A stretch of DNA of 64,000 nt from an uncultured Bacilli bacterium (GTDB lineage Bacteria; Bacillota_I; Bacilli_A; ML615J-28; CAG-698), in the NCBI GenBank assembly GCA_947627195.1, contig CANQVC010000003.1, forward strand, positions 1 to 64,000, read 5' to 3'. The notes beneath the pieces were generated by a model. That model searched no databases and was not told the DNA's origin. It saw nothing but the letters and a program-made list of their open reading frames with translations. Both the position numbers and the translations under genes were made by a program. This document shows, piece after piece, positions 21,464 to 30,972 of this stretch (positions are counted from its first letter, which is position 1; each line of letters opens with the position of its first letter).

Positions 21464-22333
21464 TTATGTTTTATCAAATAATTTTCTTTTAGCTTTTGAT
21501 GAAGAAAATTTCATTTTTAAACTTTCACTATTATCTTCTTCAATATCTTTTTTTATCTTTTCTAATTCAATAATGAATTGATTTATTTCACTGATTAAAT
21601 AATCTTTATTTGATAAAAACAATTCACTCCATAATTCTTCATTTACTTTCGCAATTCTTGTTAAATCACGAAATGAATCTCCTGTATATTTAATATAATT
21701 TTCTGCTTCATGAGAATTCATTAAACTAACAGCTATAGCATGAGGAAGCTGGGATAAGAAACCAATAATTTCATCATGTTGTTCAGGGGTTAATATTTCA
21801 ATATATTTGCATCCTAATAATAAAGCAAATTGTTTTAATAATTCAATTGCTTCTAAAGAATTTTTATTTGTTGGGGTAATAATGAAATTAGCTTTTTTAA
21901 ATAAATCACCACTACTATTCATTATACCACTTGTTTCTTTTCCTGCCATAGGATGACTAGCAATAAATTCTAAATCATCTCTTAATATCATTTGTGCTTT
22001 TTCAATAATTTTTCTTTTAACACCAGTACAATCAGTAATAATAGTATGCGGTTTAATTTTATTTTGATTATTTTCTAACCACGTCATTACATTATTAGGA
22101 TATAAACCTAAAATGATAAAATCTGCTTCTTTAATACAATCATCAAAAGAAAGATTATGATTATCAATTATATTATTTTTTATAGCATATTGCATTGTTT
22201 GTTGATTAATATCTATACCCATAGGTATTATATTATTTTCATTTAATACTTTGGCATAGCTACCACCAATAAGACCTAAACCAACAATAAGAATTTTTTT
22301 CATTGAAAATATTTTAGTATTATTTATATTCAT
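21464..22333 (-). CDS. tyrA: prephenate dehydrogenase
   Basis: TyrA oxidatively decarboxylates prephenate to 4-hydroxyphenylpyruvate for tyrosine. The NAD-binding GLGLIGGSYAK motif is at about residues 17-27; SHPMAGKETSG near 129 and the TPEQHDEIIGFLSQLPH motif near 198-215 carry the substrate-binding and catalytic histidines. At 289 residues it lacks the ACT domain and chorismate mutase found in some TyrAs. The ATG at 22333 overlaps the aroA stop (ATGA); a second Met (residue 11) just before the Rossmann motif is a possible start. It is the last gene of the aromatic operon. Confidence 0.93.
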   Translation of the reverse strand: MNINNTKIFSMKKILIVGLGLIGGSYAKVLNENNIIPMGIDINQQTMQYAIKNNIIDNHNLSFDDCIKEADFIILGLYPNNVMTWLENNQNKIKPHTIITDCTGVKRKIIEKAQMILRDDLEFIASHPMAGKETSGIMNSSGDLFKKANFIITPTNKNSLEAIELLKQFALLLGCKYIEILTPEQHDEIIGFLSQLPHAIAVSLMNSHEAENYIKYTGDSFRDLTRIAKVNEELWSELFLSNKDYLISEINQFIIELEKIKKDIEEDNSESLKMKFSSSKAKRKLFDKT

Positions 22334-23586
22334 ATTAGTTCAACTTTAACTCCTAATTTTCTTAAATCAGTAAAAAATGTTGGATATGATTTATTTATAC
22401 ATTCAACACCTGTTAATTTAACTGGATTAGCTGAAATTGTTGCCATAATTGCCATTGCCATACAAATGCGATGATCATTATGACAATCAATTACTTCATT
22501 TGTTTTTATTTCATCTTTACCAGTTATAATAACTTTATCGGGATAAACGCAAAATGAAATATTAAATTTTTGTAATTCCTGTTGCATTGAAAGAATTCTA
22601 TCAGATTCTTTTAAACGTAATCTTTCGATATTATAAAATGTTGTTTGACCATTTGCATGAGCACTTGCAACCATTAAAATTGGTCCTAAATCTGGACAAT
22701 CTTCTAAAGATATTTCAACATTCTTTAGTTTAGATGGATAAACTGTATGAGTAAGATCATCTATTCTACCATTCATTTGCTTTAATATTTTTTCAATTGC
22801 TTTATCACCTTGTAAACTATTATTATTTAATCCTTGAATTGTTAATTCTTGATTAAATAAACCAAAAACATAAAAGAAAGCAGCTTGTGAATAATCTCCT
22901 TCAACAATATAATTACAAGGTTTATATTGTTGCATACCTGGAATATAAAATAAATATTGAGATTTTCTTTCTATGTTTATGCCAAATTTATTTAATACAT
23001 CTAATGTTAATTCTAAATATGAACCTGATTCAAGAGGAGGAATTATTTCAATTGAGGAAGATGTAGGAAGTAATGGAAGACTAAATAATAATCCAGTAAT
23101 AAATTGACTCGAAACATTTCCTAATATCGAATAATGATTTCCTTTTAAACATGGTTTTACTTCTAAATAATTTTCATAAATTTTTAAATTATCTTTAAAT
23201 ATATCTTGATATATACTAAGTGGTCTTGATAATAATTTAGGTGTTCCATATATCTTAGTATTTAAAGAAAATAAAGAACAAATAGGAATCATGAAACGCA
23301 ATGTAGATCCTGATTCATTGCAAGAAAAAGAAAGAGAATCTAATATTTTATTACTTCTACCAATAATTTCTAAATTATTATTTATAATATTAATATTTGC
23401 ACCAAGATTTTTTACTGCATTAATGGTAGCTATAATATCATCACTTAAATTAACATTACTAATAATACTTTTACCATTTGCTAGGGAAGCACTAATAATA
23501 CTGCGATGTGCTAAACTTTTTGATGTTGGCACTTTTATAAAATTAGTTTCATCTACTTTTTGATATGGATAGATAATAGCATCCAT
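22330..23586 (-). CDS. aroA: 5-enolpyruvylshikimate-3-phosphate synthase
   Basis: AroA joins shikimate-3-P and phosphoenolpyruvate. KVPTSKSLAHRSII near residues 18-31, NESGSTLRFMIP near 89-100 and the RLRLKESDR stretch near 325 are family hallmarks; 418 residues is close to normal. NESGSTLRFM has Glu and Ser where many enzymes read GNAGTxxR, as in the more divergent glyphosate-tolerant-like types. It overlaps aroF by 1 base and tyrA by 4. Confidence 0.95.
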   Translation of the reverse strand: MDAIIYPYQKVDETNFIKVPTSKSLAHRSIISASLANGKSIISNVNLSDDIIATINAVKNLGANINIINNNLEIIGRSNKILDSLSFSCNESGSTLRFMIPICSLFSLNTKIYGTPKLLSRPLSIYQDIFKDNLKIYENYLEVKPCLKGNHYSILGNVSSQFITGLLFSLPLLPTSSSIEIIPPLESGSYLELTLDVLNKFGINIERKSQYLFYIPGMQQYKPCNYIVEGDYSQAAFFYVFGLFNQELTIQGLNNNSLQGDKAIEKILKQMNGRIDDLTHTVYPSKLKNVEISLEDCPDLGPILMVASAHANGQTTFYNIERLRLKESDRILSMQQELQKFNISFCVYPDKVIITGKDEIKTNEVIDCHNDHRICMAMAIMATISANPVKLTGVECINKSYPTFFTDLRKLGVKVELI

Positions 23587-24602
23587 TACATATCACGTCC
23601 TATTATTTTCGCAATAGCTTTTCCTTTTCTAATCAATTCTGTAAAATGTTCAACAGTTAATGATTGTTGTCCATCACTTAAGGCTTTTTCTGGATGATTA
23701 TGAACTTCAATAATTAAACCATCACATCCTGCAGCAATTGCCGCTAAAGACATCGATTCCACAAGTTCCCAATGTCCTGTGGCATGAGATGGATCAATAA
23801 TAATTGGTAAATGACTTAATTTTTTAATTTGAGGAACAACTGATAAATCTAAGGTATTTCTTGTCGATCTTTCAAAAGTTCTAATTCCTCTTTCACATAA
23901 TATGACATTAGGATTTCCTTCAGACATTATATATTCAGCACTCATTAACCATTCTTCTAAAGTATTAGCTAATCCTCTTTTTAATAAAATTGGTTTATTT
24001 GTTTTACCTAATGCACGCAATAAATCAAAGTTTTGCATATTTCTTGCCCCAACTTGAATTATATCAACATTCTTAACGAATTCATCAATTTTATCAACTG
24101 ACATAATTTCAGTAACTATTGGTAAATTAGTTTTTTCTCTTGCTTCGCATAAATATTTAATACCTTCACTTTTTAATCCTTGAAAAACATAAGGAGATGT
24201 TCTTGGTTTATATGCCCCACCTCTTAACATTTTAGCGCCAGCTTCTTTTACACCACTAGCTATTTCCATAATTTGTTCTTCACTTTCCACAGAACAAGGT
24301 CCACCAATAACTACTACTGGTTCATTTCCACCAATTTTTATACCATTGACATCAATAATTGTATCTTCAGGATGAAATTGTCTACTTACTTTTTTATATG
24401 GAGTAGCAATATGAGTGACACTAATGACCCATGGATACATCCCTAGTCTACTTTCATCAACAATTGTTGTATCACCAATTAAACCTAAAATATTAACAGT
24501 TTCTCCAACTATTTCTTGAACTTTTAAACCTTTACTTTCTATATCATGAATGACTGCCTCAACTTCTTCTCTTGGGGCTTTACTTTGGATTGTTATAACC
24601 AT
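23586..24602 (-). CDS. aroF: DAHP synthase, type I-beta with regulatory domain
   Basis: First enzyme of the shikimate pathway (PEP plus erythrose-4-P). Residues 1-70 form a small ferredoxin-like domain as in Thermotoga DAHP synthase, where it mediates tyrosine feedback. The catalytic barrel follows: GGPCSVESEEQI near 99-110, RGGAYKPRTSPYVFQG near 126-141, KRGL, and DPSHATGHWE near 267. No chorismate mutase domain is attached. The gene overlaps the aroE/K gene by 10 bases. Feedback control at protein level would act together with the leader attenuator upstream. Confidence 0.95.
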   Translation of the reverse strand: MVITIQSKAPREEVEAVIHDIESKGLKVQEIVGETVNILGLIGDTTIVDESRLGMYPWVISVTHIATPYKKVSRQFHPEDTIIDVNGIKIGGNEPVVVIGGPCSVESEEQIMEIASGVKEAGAKMLRGGAYKPRTSPYVFQGLKSEGIKYLCEAREKTNLPIVTEIMSVDKIDEFVKNVDIIQVGARNMQNFDLLRALGKTNKPILLKRGLANTLEEWLMSAEYIMSEGNPNVILCERGIRTFERSTRNTLDLSVVPQIKKLSHLPIIIDPSHATGHWELVESMSLAAIAAGCDGLIIEVHNHPEKALSDGQQSLTVEHFTELIRKGKAIAKIIGRDM

Positions 24603-25858
24603 TTTAATTCACCTAATATTCCTTTCACAGCATCAATTATATTATCATCATTTTTAATAACAATATCAGCATATTGTTTATATAAATCTTTTCTTTCTTG
24701 ATATCTCTTTTCTAAATCTTCTTTATTTTTAGTTAATGGTCTAGATTCTTCATCAACAATTATTTTATCAATTGAACGGTCTATCCATATAATTATTCCA
24801 TTACCTTTTAAATTATTGATATTATTTTGTCTTAAAATTACTCCTCCACCTGAAGAAATAATTTTTTGTTTTTCTAGTGATACTTCTTTTATCACATTTT
24901 CTTCTAAATCACGAAAATATTGTTCACCATATTTTTTAAATATTTCAGGAATTGTCATTTTAGCTTTTTCTTCAATGATTTTGTCACATTCTAATACATC
25001 CATATCGATACCATTAGAATGTAAAACTTTTTGTAGTTGTGATGCAATTGTTGACTTACCTGATCCAGGCATACCAATTAATACAATATTTAATACTTCA
25101 GTTTTTAATTTTTGATAAATTCTAGTAATTTCATCATTATTAATTGGTGAATTATGAAAAAATATTTCACTAGCAACTTTAGCTTGTGTTACTAACATTT
25201 CTAAACCAGAAACAGCTTTTATTTTCCTTTTTTCCGCCTCTAAAATGAGCTGTGTTCGAATTGGATTATATACCACATCAATTATTGCTTCCACATTTTT
25301 ATAACAATCTAGGTCAATAATTAGTTTACCTAAATTGGGATACATGCCAACAGGCGTTGTATTAACAAATATTTCAATTTCATTATGTAGAGCTAATTCT
25401 TCATATGTTAATAAATTTTCTTCATCTAAATCTTCAATTGTTGCTTTATAAACAATTTTAGCTTGTAAATCTTCTAAAACACATTTAGCTGTTTTACTTG
25501 TTCCCCCAGTTCCTAAAATACAAACAGTTTTACCTTTTACTTCAATATTATGTTTCTTAATTAAATATAAAAAACCATCATAATCAGTATTATAACCATA
25601 TAATTTACCATTATCATTAACAATGGTATTAACAGCTCCTATTTTTTTAGCACTTTCGCTTATTGTATCTAAATAAGGAATTACTTTTTGTTTATAGGGA
25701 ATAGTTACATTAATTCCATCAAAGTCTTTTTTATCCATGAATTTATGAAAATCATCTTCATTTAATGGCCATAATTCATAAGGTTCATTTCTTAATTCTT
25801 CATGAATAATTTTTGAATAAGAATGCCCAAGTTTACCACCTATTAATCCTAATTTCAT
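24593..25858 (-). CDS. aroE-aroK: shikimate dehydrogenase-shikimate kinase fusion
   Basis: Bifunctional protein of 421 residues. Residues 1 to about 250 are AroE: GKLGHSYSKIIHE at 8-20, catalytic K56 (TIPYKQ) and D92 (NTDYDG), dinucleotide loop GTGGTSKTA at 116-124, and GLEMLVTQA at 218-226. Residues about 256-421 are AroK: Walker A GMPGSGKST at 262-270, followed by a GGGVILR-type shikimate-binding motif. One chain would therefore catalyse two consecutive steps, reducing dehydroshikimate and phosphorylating shikimate. The frame is continuous and it abuts aroC. 3-Dehydroquinate dehydratase is not encoded in this operon. Confidence 0.94.
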   Translation of the reverse strand: MKLGLIGGKLGHSYSKIIHEELRNEPYELWPLNEDDFHKFMDKKDFDGINVTIPYKQKVIPYLDTISESAKKIGAVNTIVNDNGKLYGYNTDYDGFLYLIKKHNIEVKGKTVCILGTGGTSKTAKCVLEDLQAKIVYKATIEDLDEENLLTYEELALHNEIEIFVNTTPVGMYPNLGKLIIDLDCYKNVEAIIDVVYNPIRTQLILEAEKRKIKAVSGLEMLVTQAKVASEIFFHNSPINNDEITRIYQKLKTEVLNIVLIGMPGSGKSTIASQLQKVLHSNGIDMDVLECDKIIEEKAKMTIPEIFKKYGEQYFRDLEENVIKEVSLEKQKIISSGGGVILRQNNINNLKGNGIIIWIDRSIDKIIVDEESRPLTKNKEDLEKRYQERKDLYKQYADIVIKNDDNIIDAVKGILGELKWL

Positions 25859-26950
25859 TTATTCCATCCACATATAGCCATATCTTGATACATACAAATC
25901 TAATAAACCAATTGCTGTCATACTATCGACAACAACTCTTGCTCGATGAACAATGCATGGATCATGACGGCCTTTTCCTTTCATTATTATTTCTTTACTT
26001 GTCAATAAATCAACTGTTTGTTGTTCTTTACCGATTGATGGAGTAGGTTTAATAACAGTTTTAAAACGAATTGGCATACCATTACTAATTCCTCCATTTA
26101 TACCACCATTATTATTTGTTTTTGTTTCAATTTTATTATTAAAGATAAATGAATCATTAGCTTCACTACCATATAAATTAGCAAATTCAAATCCTAAACC
26201 AAATTCAACACCTTTAACAGCAGGAATTGAAAATAATAGTGAAGAAAGTACAGATTCAATTGAGGAAAAGAATGGTTCACCAATTCCTCCTTCAATATTT
26301 AAAATAGCTGTTTCTAAAATGCCACCAACTGAATCTAAATTTTCTTTAGCTTTTTTTATTTCATCTAACATTTTATTTTTAGAAGTAGATGATATAACAG
26401 CAAAATATGAATCATTTATTTTATCAATTTGTTTTTCTAATTCTTGAGGATTAACAGCAAAATCAACATCAATTGTATGATGAATTTGTTTGATATGAGT
26501 TGCTATTTTAATATGTTTATTTAATAAAATTTGTTTACAAATTGCTCCTGCAATAACAATTGGTGCCGTAATTCTTCCCGAAAAATGGCCTCCACCACGA
26601 TAATCTTGATAACCATCATATTTTAAAAAGGCAGTATAATCAGCATGTCCAGGACGAAGTATATTAGGTTGATAATCTGTTGATTTCGTATCTTCATTAG
26701 GAATTAAAATTGTTAATGGAGTACCTGTTGTATAACCATTAAAATAACCACTAATAATTTTAAAAGAATCTTTTTCTTGCCTTGATGTTGATATTGAACC
26801 TTGAGGTTTCCTTTTGTTTAATTCTTTTTCGATATTATCAATATCTAACATAATACCTTGTTTTAATCCATCAATAACAACACCTATTGCCTCACCATGA
26901 GATTCACCAAATAAAGATATGTGAATGTTTTTACCAAATGATGATGCCAT
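25859..26950 (-). CDS. aroC: chorismate synthase
   Basis: FMN-dependent enzyme turning EPSP into chorismate, 363 residues. Signatures: GESHGEAIGVVIDG at 15-28, GYQDYRGGGHFSGR near 110-123 and the C-terminal KGRHDPCIVHRARVVVDSM. It lies 1 base after aroB and directly before aroE/K. No flavin reductase domain is attached, so reduced FMN must come from elsewhere. Confidence 0.96.
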   Translation of the reverse strand: MASSFGKNIHISLFGESHGEAIGVVIDGLKQGIMLDIDNIEKELNKRKPQGSISTSRQEKDSFKIISGYFNGYTTGTPLTILIPNEDTKSTDYQPNILRPGHADYTAFLKYDGYQDYRGGGHFSGRITAPIVIAGAICKQILLNKHIKIATHIKQIHHTIDVDFAVNPQELEKQIDKINDSYFAVISSTSKNKMLDEIKKAKENLDSVGGILETAILNIEGGIGEPFFSSIESVLSSLLFSIPAVKGVEFGLGFEFANLYGSEANDSFIFNNKIETKTNNNGGINGGISNGMPIRFKTVIKPTPSIGKEQQTVDLLTSKEIIMKGKGRHDPCIVHRARVVVDSMTAIGLLDLYVSRYGYMWME

Positions 26951-26951
26951 A

Positions 26952-27959
26952 TTATTCCATCTCCTTTATTTTTTGATATAATTCATTAATAGAAATATTA
27001 ACCATTTTGTATTTTTCAATTGCTTCTAATTGAATAATGGTAATTTCATTTTGCTGTCTTTTTTTATCATTTAAAACAGCTTGATATATTTGATCTGTTT
27101 TATTTAGAATTGGTTTTTTTATATTCATTTTATTTAAGTAATTTAAGACTTGATTTTTAAGTTCTAAATCTTTTATCCATGGTATCATCCCAAAACCAAC
27201 AGCTTCGCCATGGTAAATTTCTCCTAAATAAGCACTTTCAATTCCATGACCAATTGTATGGCCAAAATTTAATATTTTACGTAAGCCTGTTTCTTTTTCA
27301 TCTTCTTCAACAATTTTTCTTTTAGCATCTAATGATCGATAAATAATTTCTTCTAAATTATTATCTATATCATCAAATAAAGATAATAATGTTTTATCCA
27401 TTATTAATCCCATTTTCATTGCTTCAACAAGTCCATTATAATATTGTCTTTTAGGTAAACTTTTTAATGTTTCAAAATCTATTAAAACACATAATGGTTG
27501 ATAAAATGCCCCTACAACATTTTTCACATGTTCTAAATTGACAGCAACTTTTCCGCCAATTGAACTATCAACCATAGAAAGTGTTGATGTAGGAATATTA
27601 ATAAATTTACAGCCTCTTTTATATGATGAAGCTACAAATCCAGCTAAATCACCAACTACTCCCCCACCTAAAGCAATAATAGTATCAGTTCGAGAAAATT
27701 GTTTTTCTAATAATGATTTTAAGATTTTTTCATAAGTTTGTAATGTTTTACTAACTTCTCCTGGATGAATAATATATTCATAACCATATTTTATCTTATC
27801 TAAAATTTTTTTACGATATGATGAAGGAATATTTTCATCACTTATTATCATAACTTTATTATTCAAAACATTAGATGGAATATACTCATCTATTTTTTCT
27901 AATAAATTATGACCAAAATAAATATCATAACCTTGTTCTAAATTAACATGTAATTTCAT
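26952..27959 (-). CDS. aroB: 3-dehydroquinate synthase
   Basis: AroB cyclises DAHP to 3-dehydroquinate with NAD and zinc, about 335 residues. ALGGGVVGDLAGFVASSYKRG and PTSTLSMVDSSIGGK are diagnostic, as is LNFGHTIGHGIE with zinc-binding histidines. The start is set at ATG 27959 because AGGAGG lies 5 bases upstream; a further-upstream start at 27989 would begin inside the leader terminator. First structural gene of the operon, directly behind the attenuator. Confidence 0.96.
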   Translation of the reverse strand: MKLHVNLEQGYDIYFGHNLLEKIDEYIPSNVLNNKVMIISDENIPSSYRKKILDKIKYGYEYIIHPGEVSKTLQTYEKILKSLLEKQFSRTDTIIALGGGVVGDLAGFVASSYKRGCKFINIPTSTLSMVDSSIGGKVAVNLEHVKNVVGAFYQPLCVLIDFETLKSLPKRQYYNGLVEAMKMGLIMDKTLLSLFDDIDNNLEEIIYRSLDAKRKIVEEDEKETGLRKILNFGHTIGHGIESAYLGEIYHGEAVGFGMIPWIKDLELKNQVLNYLNKMNIKKPILNKTDQIYQAVLNDKKRQQNEITIIQLEAIEKYKMVNISINELYQKIKEME

Positions 27960-27972
27960 AATACCTCCTAAC

Positions 27973-28003
27973 AAAAAATGTGTTACCATTTAGATAACAC
28001 ATT
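27973..28003 (-). terminator. attenuator terminator in front of aroB
   Basis: Minus-strand hairpin with arms AATGTGTTA and TAACACATT around a short loop, followed by TTTTTTG. It ends about 14 bases before the aroB start codon, just ahead of AGGAGG. Its 5' arm (27993-28001) can instead pair with GATAACAC at 28026-28033, so it is a conditional terminator. Confidence 0.88.
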
Positions 28004-28145
28004 AAATATTTATATTTATAAATCCGTGTTATCCCTGATATTGTTTATCGAATCAAGAATAACTTACAGATATTTATCATGGCATTACTAAAATACCAAG
28101 ATATGAGAGTAAATTAAACTCGACTCTTTCTTGGATTAAAGTAAT
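28004..28145 (-). promoter_or_regulatory. aro operon transcription attenuator (alternative stems)
   Basis: Several exclusive pairings can be drawn on the transcript. (1) A long hairpin at 28084-28145 with outer ATTACT/AGTAAT, then CCAAGA/TCTTGG and AGAGT/ACTCT; its 5' side includes the last Tyr and Phe codons of the leader peptide. (2) A small alternative stem GGTATT/AATGCC at 28081-28097. (3) TTATTCTTGAT/ATCAGGGATAA, 11 pairs with G-U, at 28029-28062, which hides GATAACAC. (4) Antiterminator GATAACAC/GTGTTATC, which breaks the terminator. The T-box core TGGNACC is missing, so control through a translated leader is the better model. Confidence 0.7.
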
Positions 28146-28188
28146 AGTAATAAAACATATTATTTATAATATTGTTTATAATGTTCAT
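28114..28188 (-). CDS. aro operon leader peptide (aromatic-rich)
   Basis: Small open frame of 24 codons plus TAA, too short for standard ORF listing. Residues 12-17 read FYYYYF (codons TTT TAT TAC TAT TAC TTT), six aromatic codons in a row, followed by NPRKSRV and the stop. The N-terminal part is MNIINNIINNM. The stop codon lies in the loop of the first attenuator hairpin and the Tyr/Phe codons lie at its base, as expected if ribosome stalling for charged tRNA-Tyr or tRNA-Phe sets the RNA fold. The ribosome site is weak (AAAAGTGG before ATG 28188); an internal ATG at residue 11 is an alternative start. Confidence 0.7.
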   Translation of the reverse strand: MNIINNIINNMFYYYYFNPRKSRV

Positions 28189-28241
28189 GTGCCACTTTTT
28201 AATGTCAATTAATGTATTGACATCTTCTCCATTCTACTAGT

Positions 28242-28270
28242 AGTATATCATATTATTCTTTTATTTGCAA
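28242..28270 (-). promoter_or_regulatory. promoter of the aromatic biosynthesis operon
   Basis: TTGCAA (28265-28270), 17 bases, TATACT (28242-28247) with extended -10 TGA. Transcription would start near 28235, giving a leader of about 275 bases before aroB. A further short hairpin (ATGTCAAT/ATTGACAT) lies between this start and the leader peptide. Confidence 0.75.
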
Positions 28271-29811: not shown

Positions 29812-29904
29812 TGATATTCAAATTTTTTTTAATTTTATTTCTTTTCTTACCATTTTATGATAAACTATTGTAAACAAAATATATTAAAAAAGGAATTAAA
29901 CTAT

Positions 29905-30972
29905 ATGAAAGATTTAAAAGAAATTAGAAAAGAAATTAATCAAATTGATGAAGAGATGTTAAAACTATTTGAAAAGAGAATGGATGTTGTGAATGATGTC
30001 GCTTTATATAAAAAAGAAAATAATATTCCTATTTTAGATATATCTAGAGAAAAAAAAGTTATTGATGATAATTGTAATAAAATTTATAACAAAGAATATC
30101 TTCCTTATTATGAAACATTTATTAAAGATATAATGGATATATCTAAAGAATATCAAAAAACAAAAATTGAAACTTTTCATATAGCATATCAAGGAAGTGA
30201 AGGAGCATTTTCTCATTTAGCAAGTCTAGCATGTTTTCCTAATGCTTCTTTCACATCTTTTCCAACATTTGAAGATGTTTTTATTGCAGTAAAAAATAAT
30301 ATAGTTGATTATGGAATTGTGCCATTTGAAAATTCATATACGGGTGAAGTTGGCGAAGTATTAGATTTATTAGTAAAATATGATTTATATTTTAATAAAA
30401 TATATGATTTAAAGATCCAACAAAATCTATTAGGTATTCCTGGAGCAACAATTAATGATATAACTGATGTTTATTCAAAAGATCAAGCAATTGCTCAATC
30501 TAGTAAATTTTTAAAAAATCGTAATTTCACAATTCATGAATTTTTAAATACAGCTTTAGCAGCTAAATATGTTCATGAACAAAACGATAAATCTAAAGCA
30601 GCTATCGCATCTTTAGAAACTGCAAAATTATATCAATTAGAAGTAATTGCACAAGATATTAATACTGCTCAATCAAACACAACAAGATTTATAGTTTTAT
30701 CGAAAAAACTTGATAAAACAGGTAATCGTATTAATCTTTCTTTTACTTTGTCTAATGAAGTTGGTTCATTAGCTAAGATTATTAATATTATTACTAATCA
30801 TCATTTTAATATGGAAAAAATTCAATCAAGAGCTATTAAAGATTTGCCTTGGGAATATTATTTTCAAATTGAAATTGTTGGTGAATTAATTTCAAAATAT
30901 ACTGAAGAATTGTTAAATGAATTAAAAGAACATACTAAAGAACTTAAAATATTAGGTTGTTATACAAAATAA
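29905..30972 (+). CDS. pheA: chorismate mutase-prephenate dehydratase
   Basis: Bifunctional P-protein for phenylalanine. From ATG 29905 (AAGGAA 9 bases upstream) it has 355 residues; the in-frame ATG at 29857 lies at or before the likely transcription start (extended -10 TGATAAACT at about 29858-29866) and is rejected. About residues 1-85 are an AroQ-type chorismate mutase (IRKEINQIDEEMLKLFEKR). About 95-270 are prephenate dehydratase (GSEGAFSHLA; NTTRFIVLS). About 275-355 are an ACT domain (FTLSNEVGSLAKII) for Phe feedback. It is the only confident plus-strand gene and is transcribed apart from the aro operon, with no attenuator of its own visible. The mutase domain also supplies prephenate for TyrA. 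Confidence 0.95.
   Translation: MKDLKEIRKEINQIDEEMLKLFEKRMDVVNDVALYKKENNIPILDISREKKVIDDNCNKIYNKEYLPYYETFIKDIMDISKEYQKTKIETFHIAYQGSEGAFSHLASLACFPNASFTSFPTFEDVFIAVKNNIVDYGIVPFENSYTGEVGEVLDLLVKYDLYFNKIYDLKIQQNLLGIPGATINDITDVYSKDQAIAQSSKFLKNRNFTIHEFLNTALAAKYVHEQNDKSKAAIASLETAKLYQLEVIAQDINTAQSNTTRFIVLSKKLDKTGNRINLSFTLSNEVGSLAKIINIITNHHFNMEKIQSRAIKDLPWEYYFQIEIVGELISKYTEELLNELKEHTKELKILGCYTK

Follow-up and report, generated by a model that had tools for sequence, protein, structure and literature searches.

A candidate Tyr/Phe-keyed transcription attenuator ahead of a shikimate/tyrosine operon in an uncultured Bacilli bacterium

What controls transcription of the shikimate/tyrosine operon in this uncultured Bacilli bacterium? 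In the window, by which we mean the whole stretch of 64,000 nucleotides analysed here (contig CANQVC010000003.1, positions 1 to 64,000), the operon occupies positions 27959 to 21464 of the minus strand in the order aroB-aroC-aroE/aroK-DAHP synthase-aroA-tyrA. The names of the genes behind aroB (aroC, an aroE-aroK fusion, DAHP synthase, aroA and tyrA) are presumed from their families, and the same gene order was found again in genomes G185, G150 and G044. Ahead of the operon lies a short frame with the run F Y Y Y Y F, that is, with codons for the amino acid products of an operon that holds both aroB and tyrA. The initial annotation had read this arrangement as an attenuator in which the position of a stalled ribosome decides between alternative helices, and the question is how far the helices, their conservation and their distribution bear this out.

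The leader and its helices

The 24-codon frame lies between promoter and aroB exactly as first described, with the aromatic run at 28155-28138 (Table 1). When the leader was shuffled with its dinucleotides preserved, a run of six aromatic codons arose in 2 of 5000 cases. The frame is presumably translated, although the weak Shine-Dalgarno sequence (AAAGTGG) at its initiation site counts against the attenuator reading. The promoter, which had been called good, does have the hexamers and extended TG of a sigma-70-type promoter, but promoter scans are weak evidence in DNA this rich in AT (9 found versus 5.5 expected); the transcript would start at about 28235. Between this predicted start and the leader frame we observe a perfect inverted repeat, TGTCAAT-ACATTA-ATTGACA (28203-28222), possibly an operator, possibly a small hairpin; the same-genus homologue G001 lacks it.

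The fold of the whole leader is more stable than that of 200 out of 200 shuffles (z −4.75), and the helices proposed by the initial annotation were recovered, some in altered form. The frame was said to end in the loop of a long hairpin with the aromatic codons in its base: it does end in the loop region of stem I, where the stop codon sits in the loop, but the base of this stem holds the last three codons of the run only, not all six. The sequestering stem is present but longer than the 11 pairs given for it, with 12 + 6 pairs (28063-28052/28039-28028 and 28071-28066/28027-28022), while the antiterminator pairing (28034-28026 with 28000-27992) and a terminator with TTTTTT just before the aroB ribosome site stand as proposed, the latter being the sole terminator match in the region (0.0 expected in shuffles). 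The sequesterer C:D hides strand D, whose antiterminator partner E is also the 5' arm of the terminator, and by helix analysis antiterminator and terminator ahead of the first gene are mutually exclusive. Overlooked by the initial annotation was the helix 28126-28109/28067-28050, which couples the position of the ribosome to the switch and completes the relay: with the antisequesterer free, C is captured, so that D is free, E is captured and no terminator forms.

Table 1. Features of the operon and its leader in the window.
Feature	Coordinates	Strand	Remarks
Predicted sigma-70-type promoter, TTGCAA-17-TATACT, extended TG before -10	28242..28270	-	same-genus leader: TTGATT-17-TATACT, equivalent relative position
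Leader peptide frame MNIINNIINNMFYYYYFNPRKSRV*, 24 codons	28114..28188	-	ATG 28188, TAA 28116-28114; C-terminal half kept in G001
Candidate sensor F Y Y Y Y F = TTT TAT TAC TAT TAC TTT	28138..28155	-	shuffle test and folding walk
Stem I (protector), 28145-28129 with 28101-28084; antisequesterer strand in its loop	28084..28145	-	21/22 pairs kept in G001
Antisequesterer 5' strand, overlapping the stop codon; partner 28067-28050, 16/18 positions	28109..28126	-	-18.7 kcal/mol here, -16.5 in G001; 16/16 pairs kept
Small hairpin GGTATT/AATGCC inside the antisequesterer helix	28081..28097	-	invariant in both species
Sequesterer C:D, 18 pairs: 28071-28066 + 28063-28052 with 28039-28022	28022..28071	-	17/18 pairs kept in G001
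Antiterminator 5' strand D, GGATAACAC, pairing with E, GTGTTATCT, 28000-27992	28026..28034	-	9/9 pairs kept in G001
Intrinsic terminator E:F, 11-pair stem 28003-27977, T-run 27978-27973 (T6)	27973..28003	-	8/8 core pairs kept in G001
aroB, first gene of the operon	26952..27959	-	ATG 27959; Shine-Dalgarno TAGGAGG 27970-27964
Remaining operon genes: aroC, aroE-aroK fusion, DAHP synthase, aroA, tyrA (presumed names)	21464..26950	-

Two further genes of the pathway were noted. A pheA-type chorismate mutase/prephenate dehydratase gene lies nearby on the other strand (29857-30972, +), and neither an aromatic leader nor a T-box was seen in the ~110 bases examined upstream of it. Another DAHP synthase (L091, G000:C57:5736-6749, minus; L092 in G001) shares 69% identity with that of the operon; it has a promoter-like sequence of its own, with no leader and no T-box.

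Predicted switching, its conservation and its rivals

We followed the ribosome along the frame by RNA folding, setting the A site on each codon and making the RNA up to 15 bases past the first P-site base unpairable, with the transcript ended at the E strand and folded at equilibrium. Whichever of the six aromatic codons occupies the A site, the antisequesterer helix and D:E both have a probability of 1.00, and on the Asn just after the run one of 0.95-0.96; these probabilities are close to 0 on the codons that begin with Pro (A-site CCA) and end with the stop codon, where P(C:D) = 1.00, except for values of at most 0.25 on Arg and Lys, and they are also close to 0 in the window RNA with no ribosome. 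On the codons before the run we obtained 0.01-0.11 through the last Ile and 0.63-0.90 on the Asn-Asn-Met that adjoins it. The front of a ribosome positioned at the last Phe codon would come to lie at 28128, right next to the antisequesterer strand, and an equally strong switch was found in 1 of 300 shuffles of the RNA between run and terminator. The walk in G001 gave 0.98-1.00 for an A site within the aromatic run and 0 for one at the stop codon; there, the upstream codons and the ribosome-free equilibrium also favour the antiterminated state, the latter being a point against the proposed switch. In the folding model of both species a ribosome on the key codons would thus favour the antiterminator and one on the stop codon the terminator, in agreement with the earlier proposal that the position of stalling decides between the helices, while stalling itself, a polymerase that keeps in step with the ribosome, and the direction of the response in vivo are inferred. 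At equilibrium the terminator is the preferred state of the full-length window RNA, with a stalled ribosome too; the outcome must then depend on the order in which the helices form as the RNA is transcribed, as it does in other attenuators.

We judge it very probable that the leader is a ribosome-mediated transcription attenuator, in which the level of charged tRNA-Tyr (and tRNA-Phe) would set read-through into aroB-aroC-aroEK-aroF-aroA-tyrA. With Tyr and Phe in ample supply, the ribosome would run to the stop codon and cover the RNA to about 28104; the antisequesterer, being covered, could not pair, C would pair with D, and the terminator would form. With Tyr or Phe scarce, it would stall on one of the six codons, open stem I and free the strand 28126-28109, which would capture C, leaving D to pair with E and keeping the terminator from forming. 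If the frame is not translated, stem I would hold the antisequesterer in its loop and transcription would end.

The sole other member of the genus compared, G001 (aroB 72% identical in protein and 77% in DNA), has a leader peptide, MSVTMNMFYFYDYFNPRKGRV, with an N-terminus unrelated to that of the window peptide and a conserved C-terminal half, MFYFYDYFNPRKGRV. Its run stays in frame and otherwise aromatic despite one inserted codon (3 bases, Asp) and one change from Tyr to Phe (TAC to TTT), and the conserved Tyr/Phe run for which the initial annotation had looked to related leaders is accordingly found in this one. The six helices keep 77 of their 79 pair slots; scattering the 36 substitutions would leave an expected 60, and none of 20000 simulations reached 77. 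As to covariation in the stems, which had likewise been named as a check, 11 of the 13 changed pairs still pair (6.7 expected, P 0.02), but no pair changed on both sides, as strict covariation would require; these two close homologues lend the stems modest support. Identity amounts to 89% in the stem I region and 57% in the spacer, to either side of the value for aroB. Covariance model R1 matched G000, the genome of the window, and G001 only, among 43 genomes of the order, which points to a leader design limited to the genus; weak matches in G020 and G009 were rejected as overlapping coding sequence. A 20-base pattern search of 120 genomes otherwise gave chance matches, a scan of genome contigs returned only alphaproteobacterial relatives of AroB, and a scan of viral contigs returned nothing.

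The conservation of the core between the two species exceeds coding needs, and could also point to an element that binds a ligand or tRNA, such as an undescribed riboswitch or a degenerate T-box, to which the short frame would be incidental; Tyr/Phe T-boxes are indeed common in Firmicutes and present in the same genome. We hold this to be improbable, since bases that belong to two helices and a codon at once should be highly conserved in any case, since the predicted switch point coincides with the aromatic run, and since the run of G001 is mostly aromatic and in frame. Nor do searches at the leader favour it. A T-box (RF00230) was rejected for want of a covariance match, a stem I and a TGGNACC core, the last of which the initial annotation had also found missing, although 11 T-boxes were found elsewhere in the genome, and none of the 4227 Rfam families, the His leader RF00514 included, reaches threshold, with chance-level matches only at E 10. 

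Even less probable, in our estimate, is a constitutive terminator behind a chance aromatic frame, with control exerted at the promoter, e.g., through the inverted repeat at 28222-28203. While the terminator is strong, the repeat lies just downstream of the promoter, and most relatives in the family have no such leader, the rarity of the run in shuffles, the multi-helix relay kept in a second species, the similar leaders ahead of the same operon in other families and the loss of the repeat in G001 all speak against it. The aroB Shine-Dalgarno sequence follows directly on the terminator, so structure could affect both, and leader translation might act through a trapped aroB ribosome site or Rho-dependent termination, not through the intrinsic terminator; as the latter combines an 11-pair stem with six T, and the fold shows no helix that stably covers the Shine-Dalgarno sequence, we give this the lowest probability of all. 

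The T-boxes of the genome precede serS, leuA, valS, tyrS, thrS, pheS, a MetN-type transporter gene, trpB, alaS, asnS and hisS, gene names that we presume from their sequences. For Tyr and Phe, T-boxes thus probably do the sensing at the synthetase genes, but not at the aro operon. The asnS T-box (L047 ~1501-1791, G000:C52) carries 4-5 tandem copies of a ~17-base unit (TTTGCTTTACGCAA...) between stem I and antiterminator. Control by TRAP was also rejected: no mtrB (PF02081) was found in the genome, whereas the search did find it in the positive control, B. subtilis.

Aromatic leader peptides elsewhere in the class

With the DAHP synthase of the operon as query, matches were found in 117 of 247 genomes of the class, and the DNA around 80 of them was scanned for short extragenic frames with an aromatic run, followed by a terminator and then a gene. 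Apart from the leaders of the window and G001, the scan retained 20, each of which immediately precedes the first gene of an aro/tyr operon: they come from ten genomes of f10 (e.g., MLNMKKAVYYYGYC), four of f15 (e.g., MLKTQIRFSYYYYYI), three of f19 with four leaders (e.g., MIKHTNVTYFYFYFR), one of f4 (MKSYILSKQTTEKFYFYYYITPLY) and, less surely, one of f12. A simpler scan, for the peptide run alone, adds G129, G123, G112 and G255. Leader peptides with a Tyr/Phe run thus stand before aro/tyr operons in about 25 sampled genomes from six families; the scan found none in f13, f14, f21, f22 and most of f1, apart from one doubtful frame in G160 of f13.

The gene behind the leader is DAHP synthase in f10 and f15 and mostly aroB in f19, f4 and f1. 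The RNA designs differ among the families, which have in common the peptide run, the terminator and the position. A cruder, automatic walk over 19 leaders of other families gave a mixed result overall, with several f10 leaders switching as expected and those of G044 and G214 not doing so, and the subset of f10 and f15 leaders tested had no match in Rfam 15. In f10 (L134, L137, L140, L147, L149) and f15 (L156-L159), we observed Tyr-run leaders directly before DAHP synthase that share a conserved GGCATTCCTTTTT hairpin downstream of the stop codon. Several of the f10 leaders also contain AAAGGAACAGCC, which has two alternative pairing partners, the leader codons (GGCTGTTTA) and the terminator loop (GGTTCC). 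Genome G214 carries two different Tyr/Phe leaders (L098, L099): MHNKGFYYYL precedes aroB, and MHTTTYETFYFYFR precedes an aroE-type gene that is accompanied by DAHP synthase.

We lean, by a little, towards the view that the shikimate/tyrosine operon of much of the class is controlled by leader peptides with Tyr/Phe runs, not by T-boxes, with several unrelated RNA designs of multiple origins, among which the genus of the window would have a five-helix relay with a switch point exactly as wide as the aromatic run. If this is true, ribosome and polymerase would have to be closely coupled, in contrast to B. subtilis, where the polymerase outruns the ribosome; an RNAP-ribosome expressome has been seen in Mycoplasma pneumoniae (PMC9226507). 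Leader-peptide control across lineages of the class would then open the question of which parts of the Gram-positive tree couple transcription to translation.

Comparison with known attenuators

The layout had been called unusual for a Firmicute, which is partly softened by precedents for his, leu and Acholeplasma aroF and by the many aro/tyr leaders in the class. Acholeplasma belongs to the same broad class of bacteria as the organism of the window, which gene content and relatives place in Bacilli in the wide sense, together with Acholeplasma and Erysipelotrichia. The uORFC-13-1 of Acholeplasma, for which ribosome-mediated attenuation was proposed, is described as lying only before aroF and as having at least one Phe codon (PMC8632094). 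Both it and the window leader have aromatic codons in a short frame that is followed by a terminator and a shikimate gene; the window leader is set apart by description, as it precedes aroB, with DAHP synthase fourth in the operon, and has four Tyr and two Phe codons and other helices. The f10 and f15 leaders do precede DAHP synthase, and are possibly the published uORFC-13-1, but keyed to Tyr. In the open-access literature we found no other Tyr-codon leaders of aro operons in the class.

Among Firmicutes, leader-peptide attenuators of his operons are known from the Bacillus cereus group, Peptostreptococcaceae and Erysipelotrichales (PMC9413887); they likewise combine leader peptides, in their case with 3-5 consecutive His codons, with a terminator and antiterminator, but serve another amino acid and another operon. 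The leucine attenuator of the Staphylococcus aureus ilv-leu operon, for which there is genetic evidence (PMC5794164), also controls amino acid synthesis in a Firmicute through a leader peptide, and differs in its amino acid, Leu, and in structure. T-boxes (RF00230), which sense uncharged tRNA, share antitermination with the mechanism proposed for the window leader, which lacks their core and stem I. Together with protein regulators they are the textbook answer in this group of bacteria, for which we here describe a candidate Tyr/Phe attenuator in detail, and the tyrS and pheS genes of the same genome use them.

The window leader also resembles the his leader of enterobacteria (RF00514) and the trp and phe leaders in its run of product codons, its alternating helices and, by prediction, in termination when the ribosome reaches the stop codon. 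The his leader is built on a helix chain, A:B, C:D and E:F versus B:C and D:E, and the relay of the window is similar. The window leader differs from these in its Tyr/Phe codons, its aro/tyr operon, its low-GC Gram-positive lineage and its lack of an Rfam match, and also in that the strand capturing C is part of the stem I loop, near the stop codon, and not of the 3' arm of that stem. It is therefore not a new kind of system; what is new is a five-helix, his-like relay keyed to Tyr and Phe, with its antisequesterer strand at the stop codon.
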